47,298 nucleotides of DNA, from contig JAFVHN010000115.1 in assembly GCA_017474515.1 (NCBI GenBank), forward strand, positions 1 through 47,298, written 5' to 3'. Under the pieces are notes generated by a model, which was not told the origin of the DNA, did not search any database, and saw only the letters and a program-made list of their open reading frames with translations. This DNA comes from Prevotella sp. Its GTDB lineage: Bacteria > Bacteroidota > Bacteroidia > Bacteroidales > Bacteroidaceae. Position 1 is the first letter of the stretch. Every line of letters starts with the position of its first letter. Both the position numbers and the translations under genes were made by a program. This document shows positions 15,462-42,557 of the stretch, piece by piece.

Positions 15462-15580
15462 TTTTGGCAAGATTTTTCAAAGTTTTTGTGTCCCAAGAAA
15501 AGATTGACCGCATTCTTCGGGTGGGAAAAATGATGTTTTCGAGAAGAAAAATGCGGCCAAGCTCCCCGAAAAATGCGGGC
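15462..15580 (+). repeat. Variable-stem element, copy 1 (left half only)
   Basis: Begins TTTTGGCAAGATTTTTCAA like the full copies, then TTGACCGCATTCTTCGGG and a returning GAAGAAAAATGCGG that pairs with it. Similarity to other copies stops near 15580; the right half with the CGCTATCC end is missing. The palindromic array starts about 40 bases later, so the right half may have been displaced or lost. Confidence 0.65.
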
Positions 15581-15621
15581 TAACCATTTATCCTGCGTCA
15601 TGTTCTCGTGGCTTTTTAGGT

Positions 15622-15910
15622 GCCAACACTTCCAAGCGTCGGAACACCTAATCTTTAATTATATAGTCCGTCTCTGTAGGAGCCGAGCCGACGCTTTTAG
15701 GAGCCGACGCTTCCAAGCGTCGGAACACCCGATATTCGATGACATAGTCCGACGTTTATAGGAGCCGACGCTTCCAAGCGTCGGAACGCCTAATTTTCCA
15801 TTATATAGATAGTCCGCCTCTGAAGGAGCCGACGCTTCCAAGCGTCGGTTTTATATAGTCCGACGCTCGGAGGCGTCGGCTCCTATGTCGGCTTCTATTG
15901 CGTCGGCTCT
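15622..15910. repeat. GC-rich palindromic repeat array, locus 1
   Basis: Four units of the palindrome CCGACGCTTCCAAGCGTCGG or a degenerate form (15622-15642, 15703-15723, 15764-15784, 15828-15848) are spaced about 61-81 bases apart by AT-rich linkers (..AACRCCTAAT...TATATAGTCCG). A related palindrome CCGACGCTCGGAGGCGTCGG lies at 15860-15879, followed by GTCGGCTYCTA-type fragments. The pattern is of a REP/MITE-like intergenic repeat and recurs at 36718-36815. Confidence 0.85.
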
Positions 15911-16060
15911 GTTCAAGCGCATTTGCAATTCGCCTGCCGTGAATATATGTCTTTGCAATCCGAAAAACATTGTCTCGCATTAAAAATGCTGATACTCACT
16001 TTAGCCGAATTGCAAATTCAGCAGAACGGGGGATATAATCCGACTCGTCAGGAGCCGGTG

Positions 16061-16288
16061 TTTTGTCAAGATTTTTCAATGGTTTTGATTTCTTGAAAAT
16101 GGTTTGACGGCAAATTGAGGTCCTCGATTTGCAAAATCTCTCCCCTCAATTTGCCATTTTTCTCCCCTTAATTTGCAGTCAAACTCAAGGCGATTTTCAA
16201 GTTATTGAAAATCAAGGAATTAGAAAAATGGCGTAAAAACAGGCAATTTGTCAAATATTTTTACCAATTTTTACCAATGTCGCTATCC
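16061..16288 (+). repeat. Variable-stem element, copy 2 (full, 228 bp)
   Basis: Left end TTTTGTCAAGATTTTTCAA, right end TTTGTCAAATATTTTTACC ... CGCTATCC. A 12-bp perfect stem GGCAAATTGAGG (16109-16120) / CCTCAATTTGCC (16144-16155) lies about 48 bases from the left end. It ends 51 bases from the stop codon of the metallophosphoesterase gene, which is on the opposite strand. Confidence 0.8.
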
Positions 16289-16339
16289 GCCGGAAAGTGG
16301 TATTTTTGTGACTGACGGGGATTGAATCGGCGACATCAA

Positions 16340-17449
16340 TCATCCGCGCCGGAGGGTGATGAGCGTGATTTCGGGCCATGCGCCGAAGCGGAAGGGCAGA
16401 ATGCCGCCCAGCCCGAACGAAACGTGGAGGCGTCGCCCGCCATCTTCGTACCATCCGCCCCACTCCTTGTAGAGCATCCTGACGGGCGAGAAAGGGCCTA
16501 TGAGCAGTTGTCCGGCGTGGGTGTGGCCCGACAGGGTGAGGTCGATGTCGGTGGTGGGAAGCACCTCTCGCCGCCAATGGGCAGGGTCGTGGGTGAGCAG
16601 AAGCTTGAAATGCTGGCCGCTGGTGCCAAGCATGGCCTTGGAAAGGTTGCCTTTCACTCTGAAGGGTGGCGCTCCCACATGGTCAACGCCGACGACCTCG
16701 ATGGTGGCGTCGCGGCGTGATATAAAGACGTGGGTGTCGCGAAGCAGATGCCAGCCTAACGACTTTACCATCAGCGAGAAAGCCTCGTCCTGCACCTTGC
16801 CGTCGGCATTGTCGTAGAAATCGTGGTTACCCATGACGGCAAACACGCCGCACGGGGCCTCGAGGCGGCGCAGCCAGTCGATGTGGGGTGCGGCCTCGTC
16901 AACATGCTGGTTGATGAGGTCGCCCGTGAACGCCACCATGTCGGGGTGTTCGCCCAGCGCCGCCTCCACCACTTTTTGCGTGAAAGAGGTGTCGTCGCCC
17001 AGCGTTCCCAAGTGCCAGTCGGAGATGTGGAGCAGGCGGAATCCGTCGAAAGCTTCTGGCAACCGCTTGAAATACACCTCGTCGTGGCGGACGCGGAGGG
17101 CGCGGCGGCCCGCCGTGAACCCGAAGACGGCCACGGCCAGGACGGCCAGCGCCACGACGGCTCCCCAGCGCCATCCCACGGCCAGCGCCGCCACGACCAG
17201 CACCAGTTTTGGAATGACCAGGCAGAGCAGGGTGGCGAAGAATAGCCGAAGACTACGCACGCGCCCGAACAATCGGCGGTGGAGCGACAGATATGAAAAG
17301 AGGATGAAAGCCGTGGTAAGCGAAAAAAGCACGCATAGCCAGCGGGGCTGGTGACCGGCGATGCCTGTCCACACCGCCACGTCGGGAAGAATGGCGGCGG
17401 CAAGCAGGATGGCCCAGATGCGCAAAACGATATGGTAGAAGTTGGTCAA
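16340..17449 (-). CDS. Membrane-anchored metallophosphoesterase
   Basis: A 369-residue calcineurin-like phosphoesterase. Residues 1-120 carry about four hydrophobic membrane segments (IWAILLAAAILPDVAV; VLFSLTTAFILFSYL; LFFATLLCLVIPKLVLVVAAL; GAVVALAVLAVAVFGFTAG). The catalytic domain follows with all metal-binding motifs: DWHLG, GDLIN, GNHDFY, LTHDP and SGHTHAGQ. The family resembles YaeI/LpxG-type enzymes that hydrolyse UDP-2,3-diacylglucosamine in lipid A synthesis or other phosphoesters; substrate is not determinable here. The active site should face the cytoplasm or periplasm near the inner membrane. A promoter box lies 27 bases upstream. Confidence 0.9.
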   Translation of the reverse strand: MTNFYHIVLRIWAILLAAAILPDVAVWTGIAGHQPRWLCVLFSLTTAFILFSYLSLHRRLFGRVRSLRLFFATLLCLVIPKLVLVVAALAVGWRWGAVVALAVLAVAVFGFTAGRRALRVRHDEVYFKRLPEAFDGFRLLHISDWHLGTLGDDTSFTQKVVEAALGEHPDMVAFTGDLINQHVDEAAPHIDWLRRLEAPCGVFAVMGNHDFYDNADGKVQDEAFSLMVKSLGWHLLRDTHVFISRRDATIEVVGVDHVGAPPFRVKGNLSKAMLGTSGQHFKLLLTHDPAHWRREVLPTTDIDLTLSGHTHAGQLLIGPFSPVRMLYKEWGGWYEDGGRRLHVSFGLGGILPFRFGAWPEITLITLRRG

Positions 17450-17475
17450 GGCAAACGGGTGGGGTGATTTCGGTG

Positions 17476-17507
17476 CAAAAATAATGGTTTTTTACAAATA
17501 GGACAAG
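17476..17507 (-). promoter_or_regulatory. Promoter of metallophosphoesterase gene
   Basis: Minus strand CTTG (17504-17507), 20 bases, TATTTTTG (17476-17483). The -7 box is exact and the -33 box has one mismatch; start expected near 17469, about 20 nt before the ATG. Confidence 0.6.
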
Positions 17508-17545
17508 AAACCGGACTTTTTTGTGTTGTGGAAAAGGCCTTCGCC

Positions 17546-17995
17546 TCACAAATCGCTATAGGAGGGCAGGTCGGGAAGGAAATGAAATGACCGGCTCGCG
17601 TAGTCCATGCGGCAACAGAGGTGTTGAAGGCCGTTCGACACCACCAGGTAATCAACGTGGAGCAGCAGGTTGTAGGCAGAAATCTGGTCGAAAACCTTCT
17701 GGGTAAGCGTTATCGTCGGCGACTTGTATTCCACAATCATTTGTGGCTGTAACTGCTTATTATATAATAAGGTATCACAACGCAGGCGTTTGTCGCCCAC
17801 TTGAAGTTGCACCTCGTTGGCCAAAAGGCCGGAGGGGAAACCGAGGTGGCCGGTCAGGTAGTGTACAAAGTGCTGACGAACCCATTCCTCGGGTGTCAGG
17901 GCGACATATTTTCGGCGGAGGTCATCGAAAATCATGCGCTTTCCCTCGCGAGAAATGATTTTTATTTCGTATGGAGGTAGGTTGATTGGATACAT
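17546..17995 (-). CDS. HsdR N-terminal-like PD-(D/E)XK protein
   Basis: A 149-residue stand-alone protein matching the N-terminal nuclease domain of type I restriction R subunits (HSDR_N family). The catalytic-type residues are visible: Asp in LRCDTLLYN and the E-x-K pair in MIVEYKSP. There is no helicase domain and no restriction or modification gene nearby, so it is not a restriction system. Such small proteins are, from memory, conserved in Bacteroidota beside holA, as here (divergent), suggesting a housekeeping DNA role. Its upstream region is exceptional: three identical promoters in 67-bp tandem repeats point into it. The predicted leader from the nearest one is only about 10 nt. Confidence 0.82.
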   Translation of the reverse strand: MYPINLPPYEIKIISREGKRMIFDDLRRKYVALTPEEWVRQHFVHYLTGHLGFPSGLLANEVQLQVGDKRLRCDTLLYNKQLQPQMIVEYKSPTITLTQKVFDQISAYNLLLHVDYLVVSNGLQHLCCRMDYASRSFHFLPDLPSYSDL

Positions 17996-18000
17996 TTTTG

Positions 18001-18019
18001 TAATTTTGCAGCAAAATTA
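18001..18019. promoter_or_regulatory. Palindrome joining divergent -7 boxes
   Basis: TAATTTTGcagCAAAATTA is a perfect 19-base palindrome. Its left half is a plus-strand TAnnTTTG box facing holA; its right half is the minus-strand box of the first tandem promoter. It may serve as a shared operator or simply reflect back-to-back promoters. Confidence 0.55.
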
Positions 18020-18043
18020 CGGAAAATCGAGCGAAGAACCAAA
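18012..18043 (-). promoter_or_regulatory. Tandem promoter 1 (nearest the HsdR-N-like gene)
   Basis: Minus strand TTTG (18040-18043), 20 bases, TAATTTTG (18012-18019): exact consensus, start predicted near 18005. Confidence 0.7.
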
Positions 18044-18078
18044 TTTATTTGAGTTTTTCCGAGATGGAGTAATTTATC

Positions 18079-18110
18079 CAAAATTACGGAAAATCGAGCG
18101 AAGAACCAAA
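18079..18110 (-). promoter_or_regulatory. Tandem promoter 2
   Basis: Minus strand TTTG (18107-18110), 20 bases, TAATTTTG (18079-18086); identical to promoter 1 but 67 bases further upstream. Confidence 0.68.
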
Positions 18111-18145
18111 TTTATTTGAGTTTTTCCGAGATGGAGTAATTTATC

Positions 18146-18177
18146 CAAAATTACGAAAAATCGAGCGAAGAACCAAA
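18146..18177 (-). promoter_or_regulatory. Tandem promoter 3
   Basis: Minus strand TTTG (18174-18177), 20 bases, TAATTTTG (18146-18153); one substitution in the spacer relative to the other two. Confidence 0.66.
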
Positions 18178-18288
18178 TTTATTTGAGTTTTTCCGAGATG
18201 GAGTATTTTTCCTTTGCAAGGCGAAAACGGCTTCACATCGCGGTTCCTACCATTAACAGATGGCTTCGGCCACCAAACAAACAACTCT

Positions 18289-19323
18289 ATGGCAGAGAAA
18301 AAAACTACCACCACCTACCAGTCGGTCATGGCCGAGCTGAGGAAGGGAAACTACGCCCCGGTCTATGTGCTCATGGGCGAAGAGTCATACTATATTGACC
18401 TCATCACCGACTTCATAGCAGAACATGCCCTCAGCGAGAGCGAGCGCGACTTCAACCAGACGGTGGTCTTCGGGGCCGATGTCACGTCGGCACAGGTGGC
18501 CGACCTCGCACGCCGCTTCCCCATGATGTCGGAACGGCAGGTGATCATCGTCAAAGAGGCGCAGAACATCAAGAACTGGGAACGGCTGGAGGCTTATTTT
18601 GAAAAACCGCTCAATTCCACCGTCCTCGTCATCGCATATAAGAACGGCACCATCGATGCCAGGAAAAAAATCCTTGCCAAGGCGCAGAGGGTGGGCGTGG
18701 TCTTCGAGAGCAAGAAGAAACGCGACTATGAACTTCCGGCGTTCGTCACCAGCTACCTGCAGGAACGCAACTGCTCGGTGGACACCAAGGCGGCGTACAT
18801 GGTTGCCGAGCATATCGGTGCCGACCTCAGCCGGTTGGCATCGGAACTCGACAAAGTGATACTTGCCATGAGCGACGACAGCGACCGGAAAGTGACGCCC
18901 GACGTGGTGGAAAAACAAATCGGAGTGAGCAAGGAGTATAATGGTTTTGAACTGAGAAAAGCCATCGCCGAAAGGGACATTTTGAAGGCGAATAAAATAG
19001 TAAAATATTTTGACAAAAATCCGAAGGCCGGCAACGCCTTCGTGCTCATCCCAACGCTCTTTTCTTTCTTCCAAAATTTGATGCTTGCCTATTACGCGCC
19101 CAACAAAACGAACGAAAACGAGCTGGCAAAATGGCTCGATTTGAGGGGCGGGGGATGGGCCGCCAAGGAATACCTGATGGGACTGAGAAATTATTCCGGA
19201 GTGAAAACAATGCAGATAATTGATAAAATTAGGGAGACAGATGCCAAGACAAAGGGCCTCGACAACCCCAATACACCCATCGGGGAGCTGCTCAAGGAGC
19301 TCGTTTTTTTCATTCTACATTGA
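18289..19323 (+). CDS. holA: DNA polymerase III delta subunit (clamp loader)
   Basis: A 344-residue protein of normal HolA length. Early residues (YAPVYVLMGEESYYIDLITDFI) are the delta N-terminal ATPase-like domain, without functional Walker motifs as expected. RFPMMSERQVIIVKEAQ, TIDARKKILAKAQ, ADLSRLASELDKVIL and KANKIVKYFDKNPKAGNAFVLI are typical of the family. It opens the sliding clamp during loading onto DNA, so it works with dnaN of this window. I start at 18289 (MAEKKTTTTYQSVM); the frame is open back to 18214, inside the region following the tandem repeats. A hairpin follows the stop (19358-19392). Confidence 0.94.
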   Translation: MAEKKTTTTYQSVMAELRKGNYAPVYVLMGEESYYIDLITDFIAEHALSESERDFNQTVVFGADVTSAQVADLARRFPMMSERQVIIVKEAQNIKNWERLEAYFEKPLNSTVLVIAYKNGTIDARKKILAKAQRVGVVFESKKKRDYELPAFVTSYLQERNCSVDTKAAYMVAEHIGADLSRLASELDKVILAMSDDSDRKVTPDVVEKQIGVSKEYNGFELRKAIAERDILKANKIVKYFDKNPKAGNAFVLIPTLFSFFQNLMLAYYAPNKTNENELAKWLDLRGGGWAAKEYLMGLRNYSGVKTMQIIDKIRETDAKTKGLDNPNTPIGELLKELVFFILH

Positions 19324-19357
19324 TTTTCCTCAACTTTTCTTGCCGATTTTTTGCTAA

Positions 19358-19392
19358 AACCCCGGCTTTTCCAGACAGGAAAAATCGGGGTT
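19358..19392 (+). terminator. Hairpin downstream of holA
   Basis: AACCCCGGCTTTTCC and GGAAAAATCGGGGTT form a 15-bp stem with two mismatches and a 5-base loop. There is no strong T-run after it, so it is a weak terminator or a 3' stabiliser. Confidence 0.5.
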
Positions 19393-20015
19393 AAACGTTG
19401 CGTAAATCAGGACTTTAACACGATTTTAAGGCCGTGAGAATGGCGTATTTCGAAATTCTTGCACGGGATTTCAGAATTTTGAAACGACGCGATTTTCAGC
19501 CCTTTTCCGACGCAAATTATTCATCGTTAGCATTTGTTTACATTTAAAACCTTGAATATTTCAAAATATAAATCCATAAAATAAATAATACATTCGTCTT
19601 TGCAAATGTAAATTTTAAAAACAAAAGTGTAAAAATGAGATAAATATTTTGGTTTTAATCCCGAAATATTTTGGTTTCTATTTACAAATGTATATTTATC
19701 CATAGCCTATATTTTGGTGCTATTAGTGTTGAAATCAGTAAGTTAAGCGAAATTTACGATATAAAACAGCCAGCGGGAAGCCTCATTAGGGAGGATTTGG
19801 TTTGCATATTTGGCTTTCCTTTGTTTGGTTCTCGTAAATAACAAAATCAAACCCAGTTAATTGCCAAAAATAGCTGAGAAAAACCTTATATTTGATTTTG
19901 AGTCTAAAATTTAGATTTACAAACATAAACACTAAATTCAAGGTTTGGAATTTAATAATTTAAATGTTTAAATTTCAAAAACAAAACCTCACAAAGAAAA
20001 ATCGTTGCTCAAAAA

Positions 20016-20047
20016 GTTGCAAGTTCCAAATTTTTGCTTTACCTTTG
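20016..20047 (+). promoter_or_regulatory. Promoter of XRE regulator
   Basis: GTTG (20016-20019), 20 bases, TACCTTTG (20040-20047). The -7 box is exact and the -33 box has one mismatch. Start near 20054, leader about 57 nt. Confidence 0.6.
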
Positions 20048-20110
20048 TAAATCGAATAGAAAAAGGGCAAAAACAGCCCTCATCACCCCTTTCAACCCCA
20101 AGAAGAAGCA

Positions 20111-20578
20111 ATGAAAGACAGAATCAGGCAGATCATGGAGGCCCAGCACATGACGCAAAAAAATTTCGCCAACTACATCGGAATGTCCGAGGGCTCCCTC
20201 AGCAGTGTGTTCAACGGACGCACCCGCCCCACTCTTAACATCGTGGAAGCCATCAAAAGCAAATTCCCAGCTATCAGCCTCGACTGGCTGATGTTCGGCA
20301 AGGGAAAGATGTATGAAAGCACGTCGGCCGTTGACGGCCAGAACGCCGGAAACAAACAGCTGTCATCCACCGAACCGGTGATTGAGTTTCCTGGCAACAA
20401 TTCTAAACCTCTCGACATTCCTTTTTCCGACGTACAAGGAACGCATGGTGTAGGTGGTACACTTAAAAATCCGGCACTTTTTGAGGTAAAAAATATTGAC
20501 AAAACGCCACGTCAAATTACCGAAATCCGCGTCTTTTTTGACGACCAGACTTGGGAGAGTTTTGTGCCAAAAAAGTGA
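20111..20578 (+). CDS. XRE-family helix-turn-helix regulator
   Basis: A 155-residue DNA-binding protein. Residues about 3-60 form an HTH_3 domain: MTQKNFANYIGMSEGSLSSV is the helix-turn-helix and NGRTRPTLNIVEAI the following helices. SLDWLMFGKGKMY ends the domain as in many Bacteroidales XRE proteins. The C-terminal 90 residues are Ser/Asn-rich, then VKNIDKTPRQITEIRVFFDD, a segment of unknown role. It stands alone between holA and pyrK on the plus strand, behind a 787-bp AT-rich region with regularly spaced repeats that could be autoregulatory sites. No phage genes are nearby; targets are unknown. Confidence 0.85.
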   Translation: MKDRIRQIMEAQHMTQKNFANYIGMSEGSLSSVFNGRTRPTLNIVEAIKSKFPAISLDWLMFGKGKMYESTSAVDGQNAGNKQLSSTEPVIEFPGNNSKPLDIPFSDVQGTHGVGGTLKNPALFEVKNIDKTPRQITEIRVFFDDQTWESFVPKK

Positions 20579-20726
20579 TGCCGATGACGTTCTTTTTTAA
20601 ATTGCGGCGGCCGGCACTTTTTCATTTTCTTCCCTTCATTTCATTTGCCGGCCGTCGATATTTTGTCATCTTCATGCCCGACAATCAAAAAAAGCACCTT
20701 GTCATAATAAAAAGCGCGGATAATGT

Positions 20727-20757
20727 TTTGTCTTGCGCCCGATTTTGCGTAAATTTG
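20727..20757 (+). promoter_or_regulatory. Promoter of pyrK-pyrD
   Basis: TTTG (20727-20730), 19 bases, TAAATTTG (20750-20757): exact consensus. Start near 20764. Because the box overlaps the open frame that begins at 20733, it also decides the PyrK start in favour of 20784. Confidence 0.72.
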
Positions 20758-20783
20758 CCGTCGCAACGAATGATAACCTTTCT

Positions 20784-21563
20784 ATGATGAAAAAATATGT
20801 TTTGGACCTGCGTGTGGCGGCAGCCACCCGTCAGAACGACAGATACGTGTTGTTGAAACTGACCTCCGAGAGCGCCTTGCCACCCATGATTCCGGGCCAG
20901 TTTGCCGAGGTGCGCGTTGACGGCTCGCCCTCCACCTTCCTCCGTCGCCCCGTTTCCATCCATTTTGTTGATGAACAGGCCAACGAGGTGTGGCTTTTAG
21001 TGGCCGCCGTGGGTGCCGGAACGCGCCGTCTGGCCGCCCTGCAACGTGGTGAGCGGCTCAATTGCGTGCTCCCCTTGGGCAATGGCTTCAGCCTGCCTGA
21101 AAACGGCTCAGAAGCCCCGAAAATGCTCCTCGTGGGCGGTGGTGTGGGAGTGGCCCCGCTGCTCTTCTATGGCAGTGTGCTCCACCGTCGCGGCCTTCAG
21201 CCCACGTTCCTCTTGGGAGCCCGCACGGAGGACGATTTAACCCAGTTGGACGAGTTCCGGAAATACGGCCGCGTGCTGCTCACCACCGAGGACGGCACGG
21301 CCGGCGAGCGCGGCTTCGTCACCAACCACAGCGTGCTCGAAAAGGAACATTTCGACCATATTGCTACCTGCGGCCCCAAGCCCATGATGCAGGCGGTGGC
21401 ACGCTATGCCCGCGAAAACGGCATCGCCTGCGAGGCCTCGCTCGAGAATTTGATGGCCTGCGGGCTCGGCGCGTGCCTGTGCTGTGTGGAGAAAACCACT
21501 GAAGGCAACCTCTGCGTATGCAAAGAGGGGCCGGTGTTCGATGTGAAACGCCTGCTCTGGTAG
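20784..21563 (+). CDS. pyrK: Dihydroorotate dehydrogenase B electron-transfer subunit
   Basis: A 259-residue FAD/[2Fe-2S] protein passing electrons from dihydroorotate oxidation to NAD. FAD binding is shown by FLRRPVSIHFV, the nucleotide-binding fold by LLVGGGVGVAPLLFYG, and the iron-sulfur ligands by the C-terminal CGLGACLCCVEKT...CVCKEGPVF cluster. I start at 20784 (MMKKYVLDL; 20787 equally possible) because the promoter at 20727-20757 lies over the upstream part of the frame. pyrD follows after 86 bp on the same strand, giving the complete PyrDB enzyme of pyrimidine synthesis. Confidence 0.93.
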   Translation: MMKKYVLDLRVAAATRQNDRYVLLKLTSESALPPMIPGQFAEVRVDGSPSTFLRRPVSIHFVDEQANEVWLLVAAVGAGTRRLAALQRGERLNCVLPLGNGFSLPENGSEAPKMLLVGGGVGVAPLLFYGSVLHRRGLQPTFLLGARTEDDLTQLDEFRKYGRVLLTTEDGTAGERGFVTNHSVLEKEHFDHIATCGPKPMMQAVARYARENGIACEASLENLMACGLGACLCCVEKTTEGNLCVCKEGPVFDVKRLLW

Positions 21564-21649
21564 CGTGCCTACGGCCTTTTTCAATGAGGAAACCCATTCC
21601 GGTCTTCATGAAAAGAGTGAATGAAAAACAAGAAAAATAATATTGAGAA

Positions 21650-22561
21650 ATGGCAGACTTAAGCGTAAAAATCAATAACCTGACACTGAAAAACCCCGTG
21701 ATGACGGCTTCGGGCACCTTCGGCTACGGCCTGGAATTTGCCGATTTCGTCCCTCTCGACGGCCTTGGCGCCATCATTGTGAAGGGAACCACCCTCCATG
21801 CCCGTGAGGGCAACGACTACCCGCGCATGGTCGAAACGGCCTCGGGCATGCTCAACTGCGTGGGGTTGCAAAACAAGGGCGTGGACTATTTTTGCAAACA
21901 TATCTACCCGGAAGTCAAGGACTTAGGCACTCATGTCATTGTCAACGTGAGCGGTTCTTCGCCCGACGACTACGCCGAATGTGCCTCGCGCATCGATGCC
22001 CTTGAAGCCATTCCGGCCATCGAACTCAATATCTCGTGTCCCAACGTGCGCCAGGGCGGCATGGCCTTCGGAGTGACCTGTCAGGGAGCTGCCAGCGTGG
22101 TGAAGGCCGTCCGCCGCCGCTATGGCAAGACGCTGATTGTCAAGCTCTCGCCCAACGTCACCGATATTGCCGAAATAGCGCGTGCCGTGGAGGGCGAGGG
22201 AGCCGATGCCGTGTCGCTCATCAACACCCTGATGGGCATGTCCATCGACATTGAGCGCCGCCGCCCGCGGCTCAGCATCGGCACCGGCGGACTGAGCGGA
22301 CCCGCCGTGAAGCCCGTGGCCCTGCGCATGGTGTGGCAGGTGGCCCGCGCCGTCGCCATTCCCGTGGTAGGCCTCGGCGGCATCATGACGGCCGAAGATG
22401 CCATAGAGTTCCTCATGGCCGGTGCCACGGCGGTGGAGATAGGCACGGCCAACTTCATCGACCCGCAGGCCACCATCAAGGTGCGCGACGGCATCGACCG
22501 CTGGCTCGACGGCCACGGCTGTGCCAGTGTGAACGAAATCATAGGGAGCCTTCAGGCATAA
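21650..22561 (+). CDS. pyrD: Dihydroorotate dehydrogenase B catalytic subunit
   Basis: A 303-residue FMN enzyme oxidising dihydroorotate to orotate. Family motifs are [19 protein letters not shown], and [13 protein letters not shown] with catalytic Cys130, which marks the class 1B enzyme (class 2 uses Ser). The phosphate-binding end [31 protein letters not shown] is intact. Class 1B enzymes need PyrK, encoded immediately upstream. A strong terminator (22580-22627) closes the unit. Confidence 0.96.
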
Positions 22562-22579
22562 ATCCTCCCAATCACCCCG

Positions 22580-22627
22580 GCCGCCGGCCCGTTCCTGCAT
22601 GTGGAGCGGGCCGGCGGCTGTCTTTTT
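22580..22627 (+). terminator. Terminator of pyrK-pyrD
   Basis: GCCGCCGGCCCG (22580-22591) pairs perfectly with 22607-22618, followed by TGTCTTTTT. Located 19 bases after the pyrD stop. Confidence 0.9.
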
Positions 22628-22635
22628 AGGGATAT

Positions 22636-22665
22636 ACAAAAGCCCCCGGCCAAACAGCCGGGGGC
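22636..22665 (-). terminator. Terminator for aroC or the candidate small RNA
   Basis: 9-bp perfect GC stem (22642-22650 / 22657-22665), 6-base loop, then CTTTTG on the minus strand. It lies 150 bases beyond the aroC stop. Confidence 0.8.
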
Positions 22666-22739: not shown

Positions 22740-22745
22740 GCGATG

Positions 22746-22777
22746 CAAATGTAGTAATAATCTGTGAACCTCGCAAC
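22746..22777 (-). promoter_or_regulatory. Promoter of candidate small RNA
   Basis: Minus strand GTTG (22774-22777), 20 bases, TACATTTG (22746-22753): exact -7 box, one mismatch at -33. It lies downstream of the aroC stop codon and points away from any coding gene. Confidence 0.5.
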
Positions 22778-23928: not shown

Positions 23929-23938
23929 GCTTCGTGGC

Positions 23939-24691: not shown

Positions 24692-24909
24692 TTTTGTAAA
24701 GATTATTTCGGGATTTTTCAGTCCCTTGAGATGTTTGGCGGTAAATTATGGGTTGAAATATGGCACTTTAAGCACAGTAAATTGGCACTTTTCTGACCGA
24801 TATTTACCGCCAAACCTCCCTTCGTTTAATGTGTACTGATTATCAATGAGTTGCGGAAGGGGCTTGAAATCCATGGGAGTGTAAAGTTTTTTCATCGTTC
24901 CCGTTCGCC
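24692..24909 (+). repeat. Variable-stem element, copy 3 (218 bp, diverged)
   Basis: Begins TTTTGTAAAGATTATTTC. The internal stem TTTGGCGGTAAAT (24734-24746) pairs perfectly with ATTTACCGCCAAA (24802-24814), and a GAGTTGC..GTAAAGTTTTTTCATC..CGTTCGCC right end corresponds to the GTTAC..GTCAAATATTTTTACC..CGCTATCC ends of other copies. It is the most diverged of the five. Confidence 0.6.
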
Positions 24910-34853: not shown

Positions 34854-36284
34854 ATGAAGAAGTGTTTTTTCGTTATTGCCCTGTTTGTTCTTCCCCTGTT
34901 GTGCTGGGGGCAGGACAATGAAATACGTGCCGTGTGGCTCACCACGCTCAACGGCCTGGACTGGCCGCGCACGAAGGCCACCAATGCCGCCTCCATGGAA
35001 CGCCAGAAGAAGGAGCTCACCGACATGCTCGACAAGCTGAAGGCCGTGAACATCAACACCATACTCTTTCAGACGCGCATCCGCGGAAGCGTGGTCTATC
35101 CCTCCGAATTGCAACCGTGGGACCATTGCTTGACGGGCACCCCCGGGCGTAGTCCGGGCTACGACCCGCTGCGTTTCGCCATCGACGAGTGCCACAAGCG
35201 CGGCATGGAGTGCCACGCCTGGGTGGTCACCCTGCCCCTGGGCAAGTGGAACGAGAACGGCTGCCGGCAGATGCGGAAGAAATACCCGCAGGTGGTGAAA
35301 CGGGTGGGCGAAAACGGATTCCTCAACCCCGAAGACCCGCGCACACCGGCCATCGTGGCCGAAATCTGCGGCGAAATCGTGGAGAAATACGATGTTGACG
35401 GCATTCACCTCGACTATGCCCGTTACCCCGACGGCTGGACCATCAGGGTAAGCCGGCCGCAGGGCCGCCAATACATCACCCAGCTGGTGAGGGCCATCCA
35501 CGACCGCGTGAAGGCCGTTCGTCCCGAGGTGAAGATGAGCTGTTCGCCCGTGGGCAAGTTCAAAGACCTCACGCGCTATTCTTCCCGCGGTTGGAACGCC
35601 TTCGACAAGGTGTGCCAAGATGCGCAGGGCTGGCTACGCGACGGGTTGATGGACCAGCTCTATCCCATGCTTTACTTCAAGGAAAACAATTTCTTCCCCT
35701 TTGCCATCGACTGGGCCGAGCAACGGCAGGGCAAGGAGGTGGCGGCAGGCCTCGGCATCTGGTTCCTCGACCCCCGGGAGGGCAACTGGAAGATTGGCGA
35801 GGTGATGCGGCAACTCAACGTCATCCGCCAGCTGGGACTGGGGCAGTGCCATTTCCGCGCCCGTTTCCTCATCGACAACCACCAGGGGCTTTACGACTAC
35901 CTGCGCGTGTTCAATTTCCCCGAATGCTGGCCCGATGGCTCGCAATTCCCCATGAGCCGGGTCCCATATCCTGCCGACGAGGAGCCGTCTGATGTTCCCA
36001 CGCTTCCCGAAGTTTCCATGCAAAAGGCGGCAAGGGGAGGGTTCCCCCTGCTGCGCTCAAACGGCGACCCCGTGCAGCTAACAAGTGTGCCGTCCGGACT
36101 TGACGCGCGCGCCATCTTGGTGACCTCGTTGACCGGCAACCGGGTGGCCTCCCTGCCGTGGAATGGCGGCAATGTGTCGGTGGCCTCCCTGCCCGACGGC
36201 GCCTACACCTTGAGCTCCGTCAGCAAGAACGGCGCCACCCACCGCCTGGCCATGCTGATGGTGAAGCGGAAATTGAAAAAATGA
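34854..36284 (+). CDS. Secreted GHL10 / DUF187 family glycosyl hydrolase
   Basis: A 476-residue secreted enzyme. Signal peptide 1-19 (..LCWGQ). The TIM-barrel GHL10 domain (about 22-330) begins EIRAVWLTTLNGLDWP and includes NTILFQTRIRGSVVYPSELQ, FAIDECHKRGMECHAWV, VDGIHLDYARYPDGW with the likely acidic residues, and GLMDQLYPMLYF. The last 90 residues look like a type IX sorting domain (VTSLTGNRVASLPWNGG..LPDGAYTL) ending in a lysine-rich tail. Members act on bacterial or plant glycans, with some relatives linked to peptidoglycan; substrate here is unknown. I start at 34854 because the promoter overlaps the earlier ATG at 34800. Confidence 0.88.
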   Translation: MKKCFFVIALFVLPLLCWGQDNEIRAVWLTTLNGLDWPRTKATNAASMERQKKELTDMLDKLKAVNINTILFQTRIRGSVVYPSELQPWDHCLTGTPGRSPGYDPLRFAIDECHKRGMECHAWVVTLPLGKWNENGCRQMRKKYPQVVKRVGENGFLNPEDPRTPAIVAEICGEIVEKYDVDGIHLDYARYPDGWTIRVSRPQGRQYITQLVRAIHDRVKAVRPEVKMSCSPVGKFKDLTRYSSRGWNAFDKVCQDAQGWLRDGLMDQLYPMLYFKENNFFPFAIDWAEQRQGKEVAAGLGIWFLDPREGNWKIGEVMRQLNVIRQLGLGQCHFRARFLIDNHQGLYDYLRVFNFPECWPDGSQFPMSRVPYPADEEPSDVPTLPEVSMQKAARGGFPLLRSNGDPVQLTSVPSGLDARAILVTSLTGNRVASLPWNGGNVSVASLPDGAYTLSSVSKNGATHRLAMLMVKRKLKK

Positions 36285-36351
36285 AAGATTTGCACTCGAC
36301 TTTATCATTTATCATTTTTCATTTATCATTTAGCGTAGTGCAGCGCCCTCG

Positions 36352-36579
36352 TTTTGTCAAGATTTTTCAAGGAATTTGAGTTCCCGAACATATTTTGACG
36401 GCAAATTTCTCGCCTCAATCTTGCAAATCTCTCGCCTCAATCTTGCAAATCTCTCCCCGAGATTTGCGGCCGAACTCAGCGCATTTTTCAAATGTTTGAT
36501 AGTCAGTGGGTTACGAATCCTGCGTAAAAACGCTCTTTTTGTCAAATATTTTTACCAATTTTTACCTATATCGCTATCC
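36352..36579 (+). repeat. Variable-stem element, copy 4 (full, 228 bp)
   Basis: Ends match copy 2 exactly in position: TTTTGTCAAGATTTTTCAA on the left; TTTGTCAAATATTTTTACC and CGCTATCC on the right. The core has a 22-bp direct repeat (36409-36430 and 36431-36452) and a 9-bp hairpin GCAAATCTC (36445-36453) / GAGATTTGC (36459-36467). It begins 67 bases after the GHL10 stop codon. Confidence 0.82.
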
Positions 36580-36642
36580 GTTTCAAAGTTAGTAAACCCG
36601 GCGTTATGTAGAGCCGATGTTATATAATCCGACGCTTCTTTA

Positions 36643-36714
36643 GTAGTCAATGTTTCTTTAGTAGTCAACGCTTTTTTCGTAGTCAACGCTTTTTTCGTAG
36701 TCAACGCTTTTTTA
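36643..36714. repeat. 18-bp tandem repeat
   Basis: Four units of GTAGTCAACGCTTTTTTC at 36643, 36661, 36679 and 36697; the first is degenerate. The array leads directly into the GC-rich palindromic locus. Confidence 0.85.
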
Positions 36715-36717
36715 GGA

Positions 36718-36815
36718 GCCGACGCTTCCAAGCGTCGGGGTAACTTTATATAGTCCGACGCTCGGAGGCGTCGGCTCCTACACGTCGGCTCCTACACGTC
36801 GGCTCCTATACGTCG
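36718..36815. repeat. GC-rich palindromic repeat, locus 2
   Basis: CCGACGCTTCCAAGCGTCGG (36719-36738), then CCGACGCTCGGAGGCGTCGG (36756-36775), then three CACGTCGGCTCCTA-type fragments. The sequence and order match the right part of the array at 15828-15900. Confidence 0.85.
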
Positions 36816-36908
36816 GCTTTTTTCGGTCTTGAAAGGCGCGTTTTTTCGTTTTGGAAGCAAGCATGCTTTTCTTTTGTTTCCCAACCGAAAAAAAAGTGGC
36901 TTAATTAT

Positions 36909-36938
36909 TTTGATATTCATACAAAATTCGTAACTTTG
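36909..36938 (+). promoter_or_regulatory. Promoter of secreted protein 36982-37764
   Basis: TTTG (36909-36912), 18 bases, TAACTTTG (36931-36938). Start near 36945, leader about 37 nt to the ATG at 36982. Confidence 0.68.
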
Positions 36939-36981
36939 CAAACAAATAATCAGAATGTTTAACCTTTTTAATTATAAAGAC

Positions 36982-37764
36982 ATGATGAAGAAACTACTTT
37001 TCACGGCGTTTTTCGCCATTGTCGCTCTTGGAGCCAGTGCTCAGGAGCGGTTCTACATGAACACCTACAGCGACCTTAACATCGCCAAGTTCGACGGCAA
37101 GACCTGCAATGTCACCGCCACGCGCCTGCTCTATCATGGCTGGAACACCATTGCCATGCCTTTCTCGATGACCGAGGAGGAGCTCAACGAGACCTTCGGC
37201 AGCGATTGCCGCTTGGAGCGCCTGGTGGGAGCCGGAGCCGTGGGCAACACCGTGGACCTGTATTTCCAGGACTGCAAGGAGAAAGGCCTTGAGGCCAACA
37301 CGCCGTACATTTTATATTATACGGGCGAGAACATGACCAAGCGCATTGTGAAGACAACACTGGTGACTCACCAGCCCGCCGAACTGACCGTGGCCATTGA
37401 CGGCAGCATGGAAACCGTGACGATGGGTGGTGCCGAGAAGGTGGTGGCCGGAGAGGGACTCTATGGAGTGCTGGCCATCGACAATGCCGACGCCAAGTTC
37501 GTGCAGGTGGGCCAGAAGGGCAGCGCCTTCTATCCCACACGTTGCTTCATCCGCCTTTCGTCGGGCGACAGCAAGCTGCTCAACACCGTCCACATGGCCG
37601 CCGGTGAGGTGACACGCATCACCGACATTGCCGCCAGCAACGAGCGCGTGGATGTCTATAACACGGCCGGCGTGAGGGTGGCATCGCAAATCCGCGCCGC
37701 CGAGGTGAGCAAGCTGCCCAAGGGCGTCTATGTGGTGAAAGGCCACAAGCTCCTGGTGAAATAA
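36982..37764 (+). CDS. Secreted protein of unknown function with sorting-like C-terminus
   Basis: A 260-residue protein (start 36982 MMKKLLF; 36985 equally possible; an earlier in-frame ATG at 36955 spoils the signal peptide). Signal peptide ends GASAQ. The body is beta-rich: CNVTATRLLYHGWNTIAMPF, TEEELNETFGSDCRLERLVG, YILYYTGENMTKRIVK. It resembles C-terminal portions of Prevotella secreted proteins in which a WNTI.LPF-type module reports values. The end (AASNERVDVYNTAGVRVASQ..LPKGVYVVKGHKLLVK) fits a type IX sorting domain. No enzymatic motif is seen. It has its own promoter and a strong terminator, so it is monocistronic. Confidence 0.75.
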   Translation: MMKKLLFTAFFAIVALGASAQERFYMNTYSDLNIAKFDGKTCNVTATRLLYHGWNTIAMPFSMTEEELNETFGSDCRLERLVGAGAVGNTVDLYFQDCKEKGLEANTPYILYYTGENMTKRIVKTTLVTHQPAELTVAIDGSMETVTMGGAEKVVAGEGLYGVLAIDNADAKFVQVGQKGSAFYPTRCFIRLSSGDSKLLNTVHMAAGEVTRITDIAASNERVDVYNTAGVRVASQIRAAEVSKLPKGVYVVKGHKLLVK

Positions 37765-37801
37765 CAAAGGTCTTCGTTGAGCCGACGGCCTCTTTATTCG
37801 T

Positions 37802-37869
37802 GGAAACAAATTAGCACCGGTAAGAGATTTTTCTTTTTACCCGGTGCCAATTTGTTTCCTTTTTTTTTC
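37802..37869 (+). terminator. Strong terminator of 36982-37764
   Basis: GGAAACAAATTAGCACCGG (37802-37820) pairs with 37841-37859 with one mismatch; ten T follow (37860-37869). Confidence 0.93.
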
Positions 37870-37952
37870 TAATAGCCGTTTTTCACGGGCCTGTGACTAT
37901 TTTTACCCCATGATATGCCAAATCTTACGACTGGCAAAAGCCGGAAACACCG

Positions 37953-37960
37953 TACCTTTG
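37953..37960 (+). promoter_or_regulatory. -7 box upstream of pectate lyase gene
   Basis: TACCTTTG, exact TAnnTTTG, 37 bases before the ATG at 37998. No clear TTTG at -33. Confidence 0.55.
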
Positions 37961-37997
37961 CAGCGTTTTCATGAAATACTAAAACAAACCACAGCTA

Positions 37998-39635
37998 ATG
38001 AACTTCAAACAAATCGTCTTGGCGGCATCAGTAGTTTGCATGCCCCTTCTGTTACAAGCGCAGACCCCCGCTTTTCCCGGTGCCGAGGGCTTCGGCAAGT
38101 TCACAACCGGTGGGCGCGGCGGAAAAGTTTATCACGTCACCACGCTCGAAGACAACACCCAGCGCGGTTCCCTGCGTTGGGCCAATAGCCAGGCCGGGCC
38201 GCGCACCATCGTGTTCGACGTGTCGGGAACCATCCATCTGAAATCGGCGCTCAAGATTAACGCCAACACCACGCTGGCCGGGCAGACGGCTCCCGGCGAC
38301 GGCATCTGCCTTGCCGATTTCCCCGTCACGCTGGGCAAGAACAACATCATTCGCTATGTGCGCTTCCGACTTGGCAACAAGAACGTTGACAAGCACGAGG
38401 GCGACGGGCTGGGCGCCATGGACTCCGAAAACATCATCGTGGACCACTGCTCCGTGAGCTGGAGCGTTGATGAGTGCCTCTCGGTCTATGGCTCAAAGAA
38501 CATCACCGTGCAGTGGTGTATCGCTTCTCAGAGCATGGTGAATTGCGGCCACGAAAAGGGTTCCCACGGCTACGGCGGCAACTGGGGAGGCAGCGGAGCC
38601 TCCTATCATCACAACCTGATAGCCCACCACACCTCGCGCACACCGCGCCTTGGCCCCCGTCCCGGCACGCAGACCGATGAGCGCATGGACATGAGAAACA
38701 ATGTCATCTATAACTTCGGCGGCAACGGATGCTACGGCGGAGAGGGAATGAACGTGAACATAGTGAACAACTACTACAAGCCCGGCCCCGGATCGCCCAC
38801 GGGAACCAAGGGCAAGCGCATCGCCTCCATCGGCATCAGGACGTCGGATTACACCAAGCACAACACGAGCAAGCCCAACGAATGGGACGTCATGTGGCAC
38901 GTCTGGGGAAAGTTCTTCGTTGATGGAAACGTCAACTCCAAATACAGCGACGTCACGGAGGACAACTGGACCTACGGCGTCTACAATCAGATTGACAACA
39001 GCAAGAACGACAATACCTACACCCAGGAAACGCGCGACACCATGCGCCTCGACAAGCCCATTCGTTTTGAACCCGTCACCACCCATACGGCCGAAATGGC
39101 CTACGAGCGCGTGCTCGACTTTGCCGGCGCTTCACTCCACCGCGACTGGGTGGACCAGCAAATGATTGACGACACCCGCAACGGCACCGCCACCTCCACG
39201 GGCTCTGGCCTCGGCAAGGGTTTCATCAATAGCCAGGACGACAACCGCCCCGCCGACGCTTCCGCCGACTGGGATGCCTGGCCCCTGCTCGAGACTTACG
39301 AACAGCTCACCGACACCGACCAGGACGGCATGCCCGATGAATGGGAAGCGCAGCACGGGCTCAATGCCAACGATGCCAACGACCGCAACAATGTCAACGA
39401 AGAGGGCTATACCATGCTGGAAGTCTATATGAACGGCATTGTGGAGCACATCACCCAGCAGCAATACGAGGGTGGAACCGTCATGGGCGGCGACAACGAA
39501 GACACCGGCGTCACCGAGATTTGTCCGCACTCCGTCATCCGCAACGACATCTTCTATACCCTGCAGGGCGTGCCCGCAAAGCATCCCTCAAAGGGCATCT
39601 ATATCATCAACGGAAAGAAGATAATAGTGAAGTAA
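37998..39635 (+). CDS. Secreted pectate lyase (PL1-type)
   Basis: A 545-residue enzyme expected to cleave polygalacturonate by beta-elimination. Signal peptide 1-22. The right-handed beta-helix shows PL1 features: PAFPGAEGFGKFTTGGRGGK, TIVFDVSGTIHL, TTLAGQTAPGDGI, NIIVDHCSVSWSVDE, CGHEKGSHGYGG and SRTPRLGPRPG. DTDQDGMPDEWE near residue 438 is a calcium-binding EF-like/thrombospondin-type loop followed by GLNANDANDRNN. The C-terminus (HSVIRNDIFYTLQGVPAK..GIYIINGKKIIVK) fits a type IX sorting domain. The GH3 gene follows 95 bp downstream on the same strand. Confidence 0.92.
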   Translation: MNFKQIVLAASVVCMPLLLQAQTPAFPGAEGFGKFTTGGRGGKVYHVTTLEDNTQRGSLRWANSQAGPRTIVFDVSGTIHLKSALKINANTTLAGQTAPGDGICLADFPVTLGKNNIIRYVRFRLGNKNVDKHEGDGLGAMDSENIIVDHCSVSWSVDECLSVYGSKNITVQWCIASQSMVNCGHEKGSHGYGGNWGGSGASYHHNLIAHHTSRTPRLGPRPGTQTDERMDMRNNVIYNFGGNGCYGGEGMNVNIVNNYYKPGPGSPTGTKGKRIASIGIRTSDYTKHNTSKPNEWDVMWHVWGKFFVDGNVNSKYSDVTEDNWTYGVYNQIDNSKNDNTYTQETRDTMRLDKPIRFEPVTTHTAEMAYERVLDFAGASLHRDWVDQQMIDDTRNGTATSTGSGLGKGFINSQDDNRPADASADWDAWPLLETYEQLTDTDQDGMPDEWEAQHGLNANDANDRNNVNEEGYTMLEVYMNGIVEHITQQQYEGGTVMGGDNEDTGVTEICPHSVIRNDIFYTLQGVPAKHPSKGIYIINGKKIIVK

Positions 39636-39730
39636 CACCCCTTTCAACCCTCTGGGGGGGAAGACAGGATGCGCAGGCATCACTTTCGTCAAAACCCTTG
39701 ACTCACAAATCCTTAAATAATACTCGACAA

Positions 39731-42310
39731 ATGAAAAAGCTATTACTTTTGGCCGCCTTTACTTCGGTCGCCATGGCAATGACCGCGCAGACATTGCCCT
39801 ATCAGAACCCCAGTCTGTCGCCAAAGCAGCGCGCCGCCGACCTGTTGCAGCGTCTTACCCTCGATGAGAAAGTGCTCCTCATGATGGACCGCTCGCCGGC
39901 CATCCCACGTCTCGGCATTCCCCAGTTTGAATGGTGGAACGAGGCACTTCACGGCGTGGGGCGCAATGGTTTCGCCACGGTGTTTCCCATCACCATGAAC
40001 CTGGCCGCCACGTTCAACGACCCCCTGGTTTTCGACATCTACACCGCCGTGAGCGACGAGGCAAGGGCGAAAAACACCCATGCCCGCCACAACAACGCCA
40101 TGCAGCGTTACCGCGGATTGTCTTTCTGGACACCAAATGTCAACATCTTCCGCGACCCGAGATGGGGGCGCGGGCAGGAAACCTACGGCGAGGACCCCTT
40201 CCTCACCACGCAGATGGGACTTGCCGTGGTGCGCGGGCTGCAGGGCTATTCCTTCCAGGGCGAAAAGCCGCAAACAAACTATGCCAAGCTCTTTGCCTGC
40301 GCCAAGCACTACGCCGTTCACAGTGGTCCTGAGTGGAACCGCCACCAGTTCAACATGACCGACCTGCCCGAGCGCGACCTTTGGGAAACCTATCTACCTG
40401 CATTCAAGGCACTTGTGCAGCAGGGAGATGTCAAGGAAATCATGTGTGCATACCAGCGCAACGATGGCGAGCCATGCTGCGCCAACACCCGCTACCTTCA
40501 TCAGATTCTGAGGCAGGAGTGGGGATTCCAGGGACTGGTCACCAGCGACTGTGGGGCCATTCGCGACTTCTGGGCTCCCGGCTATCACGGTTTTTCGGCC
40601 ACAAAGGGTGAGGCCGCTGCCAAGGCCGTCATCGCAGGCACCGACCTCGAGTGCGGCAGTGAGTACAAGGCTTTGCCACAGGCGCTGAAAGAGGGGAAAA
40701 TCACTGAGGAACAAATCAATACCAGCCTCATGCGGCTCCTTACGGGACGCTTCGAGCTGGGCGACTTCGACCCCGACAACCTTGTGCCCTGGACCAATAT
40801 TCCCATGAGCGTGGTGGCCAGTGCCGAGCACAAGCAGCTTGCACTCGAGGCTGCCCGTCAGGGTATTGTACTTCTGCAAAACAACAACGGCGTGCTGCCC
40901 CTGCGCGCCGGTCAGAACATTCTTGTCATGGGTCCCAACGCCAACGACTCCACCATGCTTTGGGGCAACTACACCGGCACGCCCACAAAGACCGTTACCA
41001 TCCTTGAGGGCATCCGCGAGAAAGTGCCCGGAGCACGTTTCCTGCAAGGTTGCGGACATACGCGTGCCGAGGTCTTCGAGAGCCTTTTCAACCTGCTGGC
41101 CTCACCCGACGGCACCCGGGGCGTGAAGGCAACCTACTGGAACAATGAGGACTTCCAGGGCGAACCCGCCGCTACCACCGTCTTCACCTCGCCCATTAAG
41201 CAGGACAACGGCGGCAACACAGCCTTTGCCCCCGGTGTCAACCTGGAGCATTTTTCCGCACGCTATGAGGCCACCATCACGCCCTCGCGCGACTGCGACA
41301 TCATGATTAACGTGGGGGCAGAGGACTATCTTGGCGTGTTCCTCGGCAGCGACACCCTCTACAACAAGTGGAACGGCCATGGGGCTGTGTATCCAAAATT
41401 CCAGAAAACGCTGAAGGCCGGACAGTCCTATCCGCTCCGCATCGATTATGTGCAGCAGCAGGGCCTCGCCATGTTCAGCCTTGACGTGGCCCAGCGCGTG
41501 GCCACCTCTGTTGACGACATCCTGAAGCAGGCCTCAACAGCCGACGTCGTAGTCTTCGTGGGAGGCATTTCGCCACGTCTTGAAGGAGAGGAAATGAAGG
41601 TCAACGAGGAAGGCTTCCGCGGTGGCGACCGCACCAGCATTGAGCTGCCCCGCGTGCAACGCGACATCATCGCCGCCCTGCACCGTGCCGGAAAGCCCGT
41701 CGTCTATGTCAACTGCTCTGGGTCGGCCATGGCCCTTGAGCCCGAAAGCAGCAATGCCGACGCCATCGTGCAGGCCTGGTATTGCGGAGAACAAGGCGGC
41801 AGGGCGCTCGCCGACATTCTTTTCGGACAATGCAACCCCTCGGGAAAATTGCCCGTCACCTTCTACCGAAACACGCAGCAACTGCCTGACTATGAGGACT
41901 ACCGCATGCAGGGTCGCACCTACCGCTACATGCACGAAGCACCGCTGTTCCCCTTCGGCCACGGACTCTCTTACACCACCTTCCGCATGGGCAAGCCGCA
42001 ATGGAAAAACGGGAAAGTGTCGGTTGCCGTCACCAATACCGGCACACGCAAGGGCGCCGAGGTCGTGCAAGTCTATGTGAAAGACCCGCGCGACACCGAG
42101 GGACCCGTAAAAACGCTTCGCGCCTTCCAGCGCGTCACGCTGAAGCCCGGGCAGACTGAAAAAGTCGTCATCGACTTCCCACGCGACCGCTTTGAACGCT
42201 GGGACAGCGCCACCAACACCATGCGCGTCGTTCCCGGCACATACCTCCTCATGACCGGCAACTCCTCCGACGACAGCAGCCTGCAGACCATCAAGGTGAA
42301 AGTGAAATAA
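39731..42310 (+). CDS. Secreted GH3 glycosidase with PA14 insert
   Basis: An 859-residue enzyme. Signal peptide 1-19 (..MAMTAQ). The GH3 barrel has LTLDEKVLLM, FEWWNEALHG, FWTPNVNIFRDPRWGRGQET and the nucleophile Asp273 in LVTSDCGAI. The (alpha/beta) sandwich is interrupted by a PA14 domain (about 463-585: VKATYWNNEDFQGEP..CDIMINVGAEDYLGVFL) and resumes at VVVFVGG; a fibronectin-III-like domain closes the protein (GAEVVQVYVKDP). This layout is typical of Bacteroidales beta-xylosidases/glucosidases such as the xylan-utilising Prevotella GH3 enzymes; exact sugar is inference. I start at 39731 (MKKLLLLAAF), since upstream in-frame sequence overlaps the pectate lyase gene in another frame. Confidence 0.94.
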   Translation: MKKLLLLAAFTSVAMAMTAQTLPYQNPSLSPKQRAADLLQRLTLDEKVLLMMDRSPAIPRLGIPQFEWWNEALHGVGRNGFATVFPITMNLAATFNDPLVFDIYTAVSDEARAKNTHARHNNAMQRYRGLSFWTPNVNIFRDPRWGRGQETYGEDPFLTTQMGLAVVRGLQGYSFQGEKPQTNYAKLFACAKHYAVHSGPEWNRHQFNMTDLPERDLWETYLPAFKALVQQGDVKEIMCAYQRNDGEPCCANTRYLHQILRQEWGFQGLVTSDCGAIRDFWAPGYHGFSATKGEAAAKAVIAGTDLECGSEYKALPQALKEGKITEEQINTSLMRLLTGRFELGDFDPDNLVPWTNIPMSVVASAEHKQLALEAARQGIVLLQNNNGVLPLRAGQNILVMGPNANDSTMLWGNYTGTPTKTVTILEGIREKVPGARFLQGCGHTRAEVFESLFNLLASPDGTRGVKATYWNNEDFQGEPAATTVFTSPIKQDNGGNTAFAPGVNLEHFSARYEATITPSRDCDIMINVGAEDYLGVFLGSDTLYNKWNGHGAVYPKFQKTLKAGQSYPLRIDYVQQQGLAMFSLDVAQRVATSVDDILKQASTADVVVFVGGISPRLEGEEMKVNEEGFRGGDRTSIELPRVQRDIIAALHRAGKPVVYVNCSGSAMALEPESSNADAIVQAWYCGEQGGRALADILFGQCNPSGKLPVTFYRNTQQLPDYEDYRMQGRTYRYMHEAPLFPFGHGLSYTTFRMGKPQWKNGKVSVAVTNTGTRKGAEVVQVYVKDPRDTEGPVKTLRAFQRVTLKPGQTEKVVIDFPRDRFERWDSATNTMRVVPGTYLLMTGNSSDDSSLQTIKVKVK

Positions 42311-42330
42311 TAACCCTTGCCTCATCCTCA

Positions 42331-42557
42331 CTTTGTAAAGATTTTTCTTAGTTTTTTGCACAGCAAAAAGCGTTTGACCGCAATTTTCAGGGAGAAAAAC
42401 CGCAGTTTTCGATGAGAAAATTGCGGTCAAACTCTCCGGAAATTGCGGTCAAACTTTGTGCTTTTTTAAAGCCTCTGAGTGTCAGCGAGTTACAAAATCG
42501 TCTGATTCTTCCCGATTTTGTCAAAATATTTCATAATTTTTCCCTGTGCCGCTATCC
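42331..42557 (+). repeat. Variable-stem element, copy 5 (full, 227 bp)
   Basis: Left end CTTTGTAAAGATTTTTCTT, right end TTTTGTCAAAATATTTCATA ... CGCTATCC. The stem TTTGACCGCAATTTTC (42373-42388) pairs perfectly over 16 bp with GAAAATTGCGGTCAAA (42416-42431), and a second GAAATTGCGGTCAAA copy follows. It begins 21 bases after the GH3 stop. Confidence 0.82.

Follow-up and report, generated by a model that had tools for sequence, protein, structure and literature searches.

Bacterial intergenic repeats are usually taken as selfish debris. In Escherichia coli, the RIB/RIP elements are IHF-binding palindromic repeats built from REPs around the 3' ends of transcription units. REPs are 20-40 bp long and carry tags such as GTAG, as the relevant parts of PMC2817692 and PMC3733652 describe them. 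The BrickBuilt miniature inverted-repeat transposable element (MITE) of Porphyromonas gingivalis has terminal inverted repeats and tandem 23-nt units, is 84-991 nt long and occurs in 19 copies (relevant parts of PMC4596501). The sole close case found in the literature on Prevotella and Bacteroidetes repeats and on spaced palindromes was PINSR of P. intermedia, which its describing sections present as a 188-bp intergenic repeat with 177 and 184 copies per genome, lacking terminal inverted repeats, limited to a few related species, of unexplained function and with about three quarters of its positions common to two strains (PMC4755523). Here we describe a family of intergenic elements of about 230 bp in a Prevotella sp. 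genome (GCA_017474515.1), starting from the 47,298-nt stretch of contig JAFVHN010000115.1 that we call the window.

Our preferred reading, held tentatively and at slightly less than even confidence, is that the element may be a lineage-specific, high-copy chromosomal nucleoprotein site acting on DNA, and not a gene. The near-rigid distance between its end blocks, its symmetric invariant positions, its palindrome, the lack of an internal promoter and its even spacing together suit a complex bound to DNA better than they suit an RNA. Likened by description and not by sequence, the element is nearest in kind to PINSR as presented in the sections cited: both are intergenic, non-coding, high-copy, lineage-restricted and free of terminal inverted repeats. 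It is longer (~230 bp vs 188 bp), and sections 2.3 and 3.4 of PMC4755523 describe no palindrome, core or spacing for PINSR. It resembles REP/BIME repeats, as portrayed in the sources above, in being a high-copy intergenic palindrome, and BrickBuilt in being an intergenic repeat from the same order of bacteria; on the parts of the BrickBuilt report cited, the terminal inverted repeats and tandem 23-nt units set that family apart. Like RIB/RIP, it consists of dispersed intergenic palindromes adjoining an IHF-type site (predicted here), but it has another palindrome, fixed outer blocks and a partial IHF match. No description of its architecture, shared core and spacing was found in the portions of the literature searched, which included IHF-binding repeats.

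The preliminary description had placed five related elements in the window. All five were recovered, all on the + strand, by a profile from which the copies at 15462 (the half copy) and 24692 had been left out:

15462..15586, + strand: half copy made up of just the left block and the palindrome (E 3.5e-14 over profile positions 1-126)
16061..16291, + strand: full copy (profile 1-232, E 1.7e-56)
24692..24909, + strand: divergent copy (profile 1-207, E 2.5e-19, match stops at 24897)
36352..36580, + strand: full copy, reference for the anatomy (profile 2-230, match from 36353, E 6.8e-59)
42331..42560, + strand: full copy (profile 2-232, match from 42332, E 1.8e-45)

The ends proved conserved, as had been claimed: at three or fewer mismatches the left block has 7 matches in the window (0.19 expected in shuffles) and the right block 3 (0.00 expected). 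Two left-block matches, at 19001 and 20487 (- strand), stand alone without a surrounding element, and the one at 20487 doubles as a right-block match. That the elements were not recognised as a named family agrees with an Rfam scan of the window, which gave 0 matches at gathering score.

From left to right the elements comprise a TTTTGTCAAG block, a long palindrome, TTTnnAAnnnnnTGAnnnTCAnnnnnTTnnAAA as a second dyad and, 185 bp past the first block, another TTTTGTCAA block. The parts of the reference copy are as follows, with the window coordinates of the long palindrome (P1) and the second dyad obtained by counting from the left end:

36352..36369 (element 1-18), + strand: left block TTTTGTCAAGATTTTTCA, exact match
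36393..36475 (element 42-124), no strand: long palindrome P1, alignment columns 54-136 of 99 copies
36485..36517 (element 134-166), no strand: second dyad TTTnnAAnnnnnTGAnnnTCAnnnnnTTnnAAA, 33 bp, resembling an IHF-type site, alignment columns 146-178
36537..36556, + strand: right block TTTTGTCAAATATTTTTACC, exact match

The right block, TTTTGTCAA...TTTTTACC, occupies element positions 186-205, and the element ends near CTATCC. That the two end blocks are near direct repeats was borne out; in most pairs they are 185 bp apart. Within P1, the outer arms GTTTGACCGCAAATTTCGGGGAGA are conserved, the inner arms covary between two types (ATCTTSAAGAT or TTTGSCAAA), and the centre is present in both orientations (CTC-type in 47 of 99 copies, GAG-type in 52). 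The second dyad, which was absent from the preliminary description, has invariant positions that are themselves dyad-symmetric. Beyond the element ends we found only weak base preferences. There are no terminal inverted repeats, the end blocks being direct and not inverted; at every offset and length tested, a target duplication was seen in at most 3 of the 99 copies, and extra hairpins flanking the two palindromes showed no pairing excess worth claiming.

The host genome (3.51 Mb, 118 contigs) contains the left block within two mismatches at 372 places, a count that includes right blocks, against 0 for the backward control. Exact left blocks with a right TTTTGTCAA at the element distance gave 123 genome matches; among the 100 both-end matches listed, one place was counted twice and nearly all had equal length despite an allowed 30-bp range. 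A census by profile alone covered 803,234 bases (seven long contigs fetched in stretches, and the window) and found 56 copies, or one per 14.3 kb, from which the genome total is extrapolated to be probably about 245. Matches began within four positions of the left end in 55 of the 56 census copies and reached within six positions of the right end in 38. Every adjusted length in the 99-copy set was 230-232, this set having been drawn from BLAST and exact-end searches that required both profile ends and so favoured conserved, ungapped copies. Mean pairwise identity over the element in these copies is 0.698, with the variable columns about as identical as independent columns should be. Identity above 0.90 is seen in only 2 of 4851 pairs, and recent duplicates reach 0.948. 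The near-constant length (52 of the 56 census copies differ from the profile by no more than 3 bp), despite a mean identity of about 70%, counts in favour of a nucleoprotein site.

The copies are over-dispersed along the chromosome, spaced more evenly than chance. An initial estimate among the matches listed (70 intervals, contigs C1-C72) gave a coefficient of variation (CV) of 0.61 vs 0.92 for random placement; 2 of the 70 intervals were shorter than 4 kb, against an expected 27%. For spacing and placement we then used 54 of the 56 census copies, leaving out the half copy at 15462 and a 164-bp copy (C27:15443). Their 46 intervals have a median of 12.2 kb, a minimum of 4.65 kb and a CV of 0.55, vs mean CVs of 0.78-0.99 in five nulls; inclusion of the half copy would add one interval of 0.6 kb (to 16061). 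Significance was p <0.0002, <0.0002 and 0.0002 for nulls on intergenic bases and on intergenic regions with and without replacement, and p 0.0006 and 0.0032 for gap-type-matched nulls (equal and length-weighted). Not one of the 46 intervals was below 4.6 kb, where these last two nulls expected 10.5 and 8.8. Neighbouring copies lay on the same strand in 23 of 46 cases. Close pairs are absent in both relative orientations, which argues against their loss by recombination between direct copies.

The IHF consensus is WATCAANNNNTTR. Perfect matches to it occur in 26 of the 54 census copies, the rate in other intergenic DNA being 0.011 per 230 bp. The second dyad has 22 matches on each of the two strands, spread over 39 of the 99 copies, and among the listed congener sites 6 of 21 have a match. 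The core is thus a candidate IHF-type site, a lead rather than a test of binding. A RAYT-like Y1 transposase open reading frame (ORF) of 181 aa is present once in the genome (L165, C24 near 23184), flanked by GTAGGGACATACTTTATGTATGTCC palindromes; this is a REP-type system of the classical sort, distinct from the element. Membership of the element in a RAYT/REP system was rejected, the RAYT-like gene being flanked by GTAGGGACATAC palindromes and not by the element.

The preliminary description had also held that the stems differ between copies yet stay self-complementary, and had proposed selection on folding, as RNA or as single-stranded DNA. We counted Watson-Crick cells in the 99 copies against column shuffles, which ignore relatedness. 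The inner stem of P1 covaries (668/792 vs 543 shuffled, z 12.9), as do, more weakly, the variable pairs of the second dyad (225/495 vs 181, z 4.9), the fixed pairs of which stand at expectation (738/792 vs 739). The outer stem is conserved sequence and does not covary (2273/2673 vs 2264, z 1.1), and the centre of P1 is an inverting, non-pairing one (52/396 vs 197). On a quick tree built from the element's remaining sequence, the centre changed orientation at least 26 times and the inner arms changed type at least 20 times, counts made without comparison to shuffled labels. Palindrome centres are known to flip at the DNA level, and template switching is known to correct one arm from the other. 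Such switching between arms can mimic covariation, so that covariation is no proof of selection on RNA. Over all listed pairs, mismatches show no lean to G-T over A-C (187 vs 275 in the first palindrome, 87 vs 249 in the second), unlike the prediction for a + strand RNA. The Bacteroidetes promoter motif was found inside 0 of 54 copies on either strand, at a low sensitivity (only 14 of 54 right flanks were positive). Those 14 forward motifs in the right flanks point away from the element; right reverse, left forward and left reverse flanks had 1, 0 and 7.

By the codon-model finder, 0 of 54 copies lie inside genes, which together with the census supports the earlier view of a real multi-copy, intergenic, palindromic family that encodes no protein. 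A cruder ORF caller placed 10 of 54 copies inside ORFs; protein coding was rejected on the codon-model count. Taken relative to the element's strand, the flanking genes are divergent around 26 copies, ++ around 17, -- around 7 and convergent around 4 (27, 19, 6 and 2 with the cruder caller). Divergent gaps hold more copies than their share (26 of 54 copies vs 28.4% of intergenic bases, p 0.002), the ++ vs -- bias of 17:7 has p 0.064, and the right-hand bias was weaker among 99 short loci (57 vs 34). Twenty of the 35 listed right-hand genes, mostly longer ones, were scanned: six encode leucine-rich-repeat/DUF285 proteins, five glycosidases, three peptidases and five other single enzymes or modification proteins (including a glycogen debranching enzyme), with one lacking a match. 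No clear pattern of GC skew against element strand was seen by eye.

The whole element was found in 0 of 59 relatives (up to 13 candidates scored per genome) and 0 of 397 sampled congeners (two candidates scored per genome); 11 of the 397 had partial matches, 8 of these on the second dyad. Across 294 further genomes from the order, a draw that contained no congener, the left block was at background (four or fewer places each vs 299 in the host). Pattern searches of genome contigs gave 0 for the left end and 13 stretches for the right block, one of them a full copy in Prevotella sp. RGIG5970, in whose genome exact both-end matches numbered 0. Host and RGIG5970 share a 1.9-kb segment at 95% identity (L206:133-2053 vs L098; three other long matches are at 69-82%). 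This copy segment may, judging from its similarity, reflect transfer or a mis-binned contig. Across the pair, 14 of 231 positions differ in the element, with no gap, and 76 of 1690 in the flanks, with one gap. Within the host stretches compared, joined flanks matched only themselves in a search for in-genome empty sites, and at the locus of a serine-palmitoyltransferase-like gene the neighbour was not conserved in the 29 congeners examined for an orthologous empty site. Some copies (L026/L064 and L002/L009) have one flank in common and the other not, suggesting rearrangement or duplication at elements. Phage or plasmid origin was rejected, the consensus being unmatched in 50,697 phage and 72,556 plasmid records. 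Short core queries gave only weak matches to plasmids and phages (best E 6 and E 0.09) and 0, 4 and 7 matches to viral contigs; inspected by eye, at least some of these fell inside coding sequence.

The dyad core also occurs in two congeners examined. At E <=1 with both strands counted, its profile gave 6 hits in 199 kb of one congener (G473) and 20 in 189 kb of another (G006), 5 of the 20 congener stretches having been chosen for known hits or orthologs; the reversed sequence of these stretches gave 0. At E <=0.5 the cores occupy 4 and 6 separate places, respectively. Six of these 10 places have an inverted repeat within 250 bp that exceeds the 95th percentile of random places, and the palindromes near the cores differ in sequence in each species. 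For 55 host genes with an ortholog-like hit in these stretches, 3' ends carry the element here in 6 cases, a core in the congener in 3 and both in 2 (~0.3 expected), one of the two having been spotted before the test; 5' ends gave 4, 4 and none. We treat positional conservation across species only as a lead. In G006, paired inverted dyad cores surround GTAACGCAGC arrays (L270:9500-10010 and L274:5520-6130), followed in L270 by a AAAACCTATGCTTTTAGGGCTC minisatellite.

Several other repeats occur near the element or elsewhere in the window. A heptamer-rich TTTATCATTTTTCATTTAGCGAAGCGC repeat often stands directly to its left (window 36297-36340, and likewise beside many other copies). Two copies adjoin members of a further family of palindromic repeats, GGAGCCGACGCTTCCAAGCGTCGG and relatives (window 15609-15885 and 36705-36815), and tandem 18-bp units ACGCTTTTTTCGTAGTCA lie at 36614-36721. 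Three 67-bp tandem units, two identical and one at 94%, occupy 18012-18212, and an inverted repeat of 39 bp (87% complementary, gap 10 bp) lies at 13037-13124.

If the element were a structured RNA, such as a leader, a terminator-like or a small RNA selected for its folding, the covariation of the inner stem and second dyad would be expected, as would right-hand genes starting away from it in 43 of 54 copies. We consider this quite unlikely given the outer stem without covariation, the lack of a G-T excess, the missing internal promoter motif and the empty Rfam scan; an RNA gene with its own promoter was rejected on the 0 of 54 count. The earlier interpretation is borne out in part: the family is real, but covariation along the entire stem is not supported as it was stated. 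We read the element as a DNA site that may act as single-stranded or cruciform DNA, or may yield a promoterless transcript. With 43 of 54 copies upstream of genes and a ++ to -- ratio of 17:7, the element could also be an operator or transcriptional enhancer for a single global regulator. This is very improbable in our view: the distance to the gene start ranges from ~100 to >1000 bp, the orientation bias (p 0.064) weakens further in the 99-locus table, the 20 scanned genes have mixed functions, and the sites of a regulon would not be expected to be evenly spaced.

The main rival is a MITE-like non-autonomous element with target immunity, its enzyme supplied elsewhere, whose transposition immunity keeps copies kilobases apart at no gain to the host. 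High copy number, intergenic placement, absence of the whole element from all 397 sampled congeners, the few recent duplicates and the absence of close pairs in both orientations all suit it. So does the lack of spacings below 4.6 kb (46 intervals, half copy left out), which fits phage Mu cis-immunity, strongest at ~5 kb and decaying to 25 kb in the relevant part of PMC7350765; the minimum spacing resembles the Mu exclusion range of ~5 kb in mode of working only. The element nevertheless lacks terminal inverted repeats and a target duplication in more than three copies, no autonomous relative was seen, the one Y1 transposase of the genome is flanked by other palindromes, and divergence is near star-like with few recent pairs. 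We regard this explanation as somewhat unlikely. Chromosome organisation and target immunity each need a trans-acting protein.

For a chromosomal nucleoprotein site, we would envisage putative proteins that occupy the end blocks as well as the dyad (the part resembling an IHF/HU-type site). Their complex would have a fixed geometry and would form next to the palindrome, itself able to extrude. Such sites, about every 14 kb, would organise or insulate stretches of the chromosome. The element would have spread by copying within the lineage, with most copies retained since. Several observations weigh against this reading. Copies are not uniformly intact: 4 of 56 census copies lack 11-13 bp, 16 end 8-29 profile positions early and 2 are short pieces. 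In the cross-species pair flank indels are rare too, so that constant length is weaker evidence than it appears. Position 2 of the IHF consensus is not conserved in the core, making the resemblance imperfect. Species restriction is also typical of mobile repeats, and even spacing can also be explained by target immunity.

A broader version, which we find doubtful on present sequence comparisons, is that Prevotella as a genus may have chromosome-organising sites in which a single shared DNA-bending or domain protein recognises a conserved 33-bp dyad core, with species-specific, fast-changing palindromes, a spacing of 5-20 kb, partly matching gene neighbourhoods, and PINSR as another branch. The near-constant architecture, the even spacing and the core shared across species of the genus make a chromosome-organising role, or the immunity of an unknown mobile system, directly testable. 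The anatomy of the element also suggests what to seek in the published, unexplained PINSR repeat.

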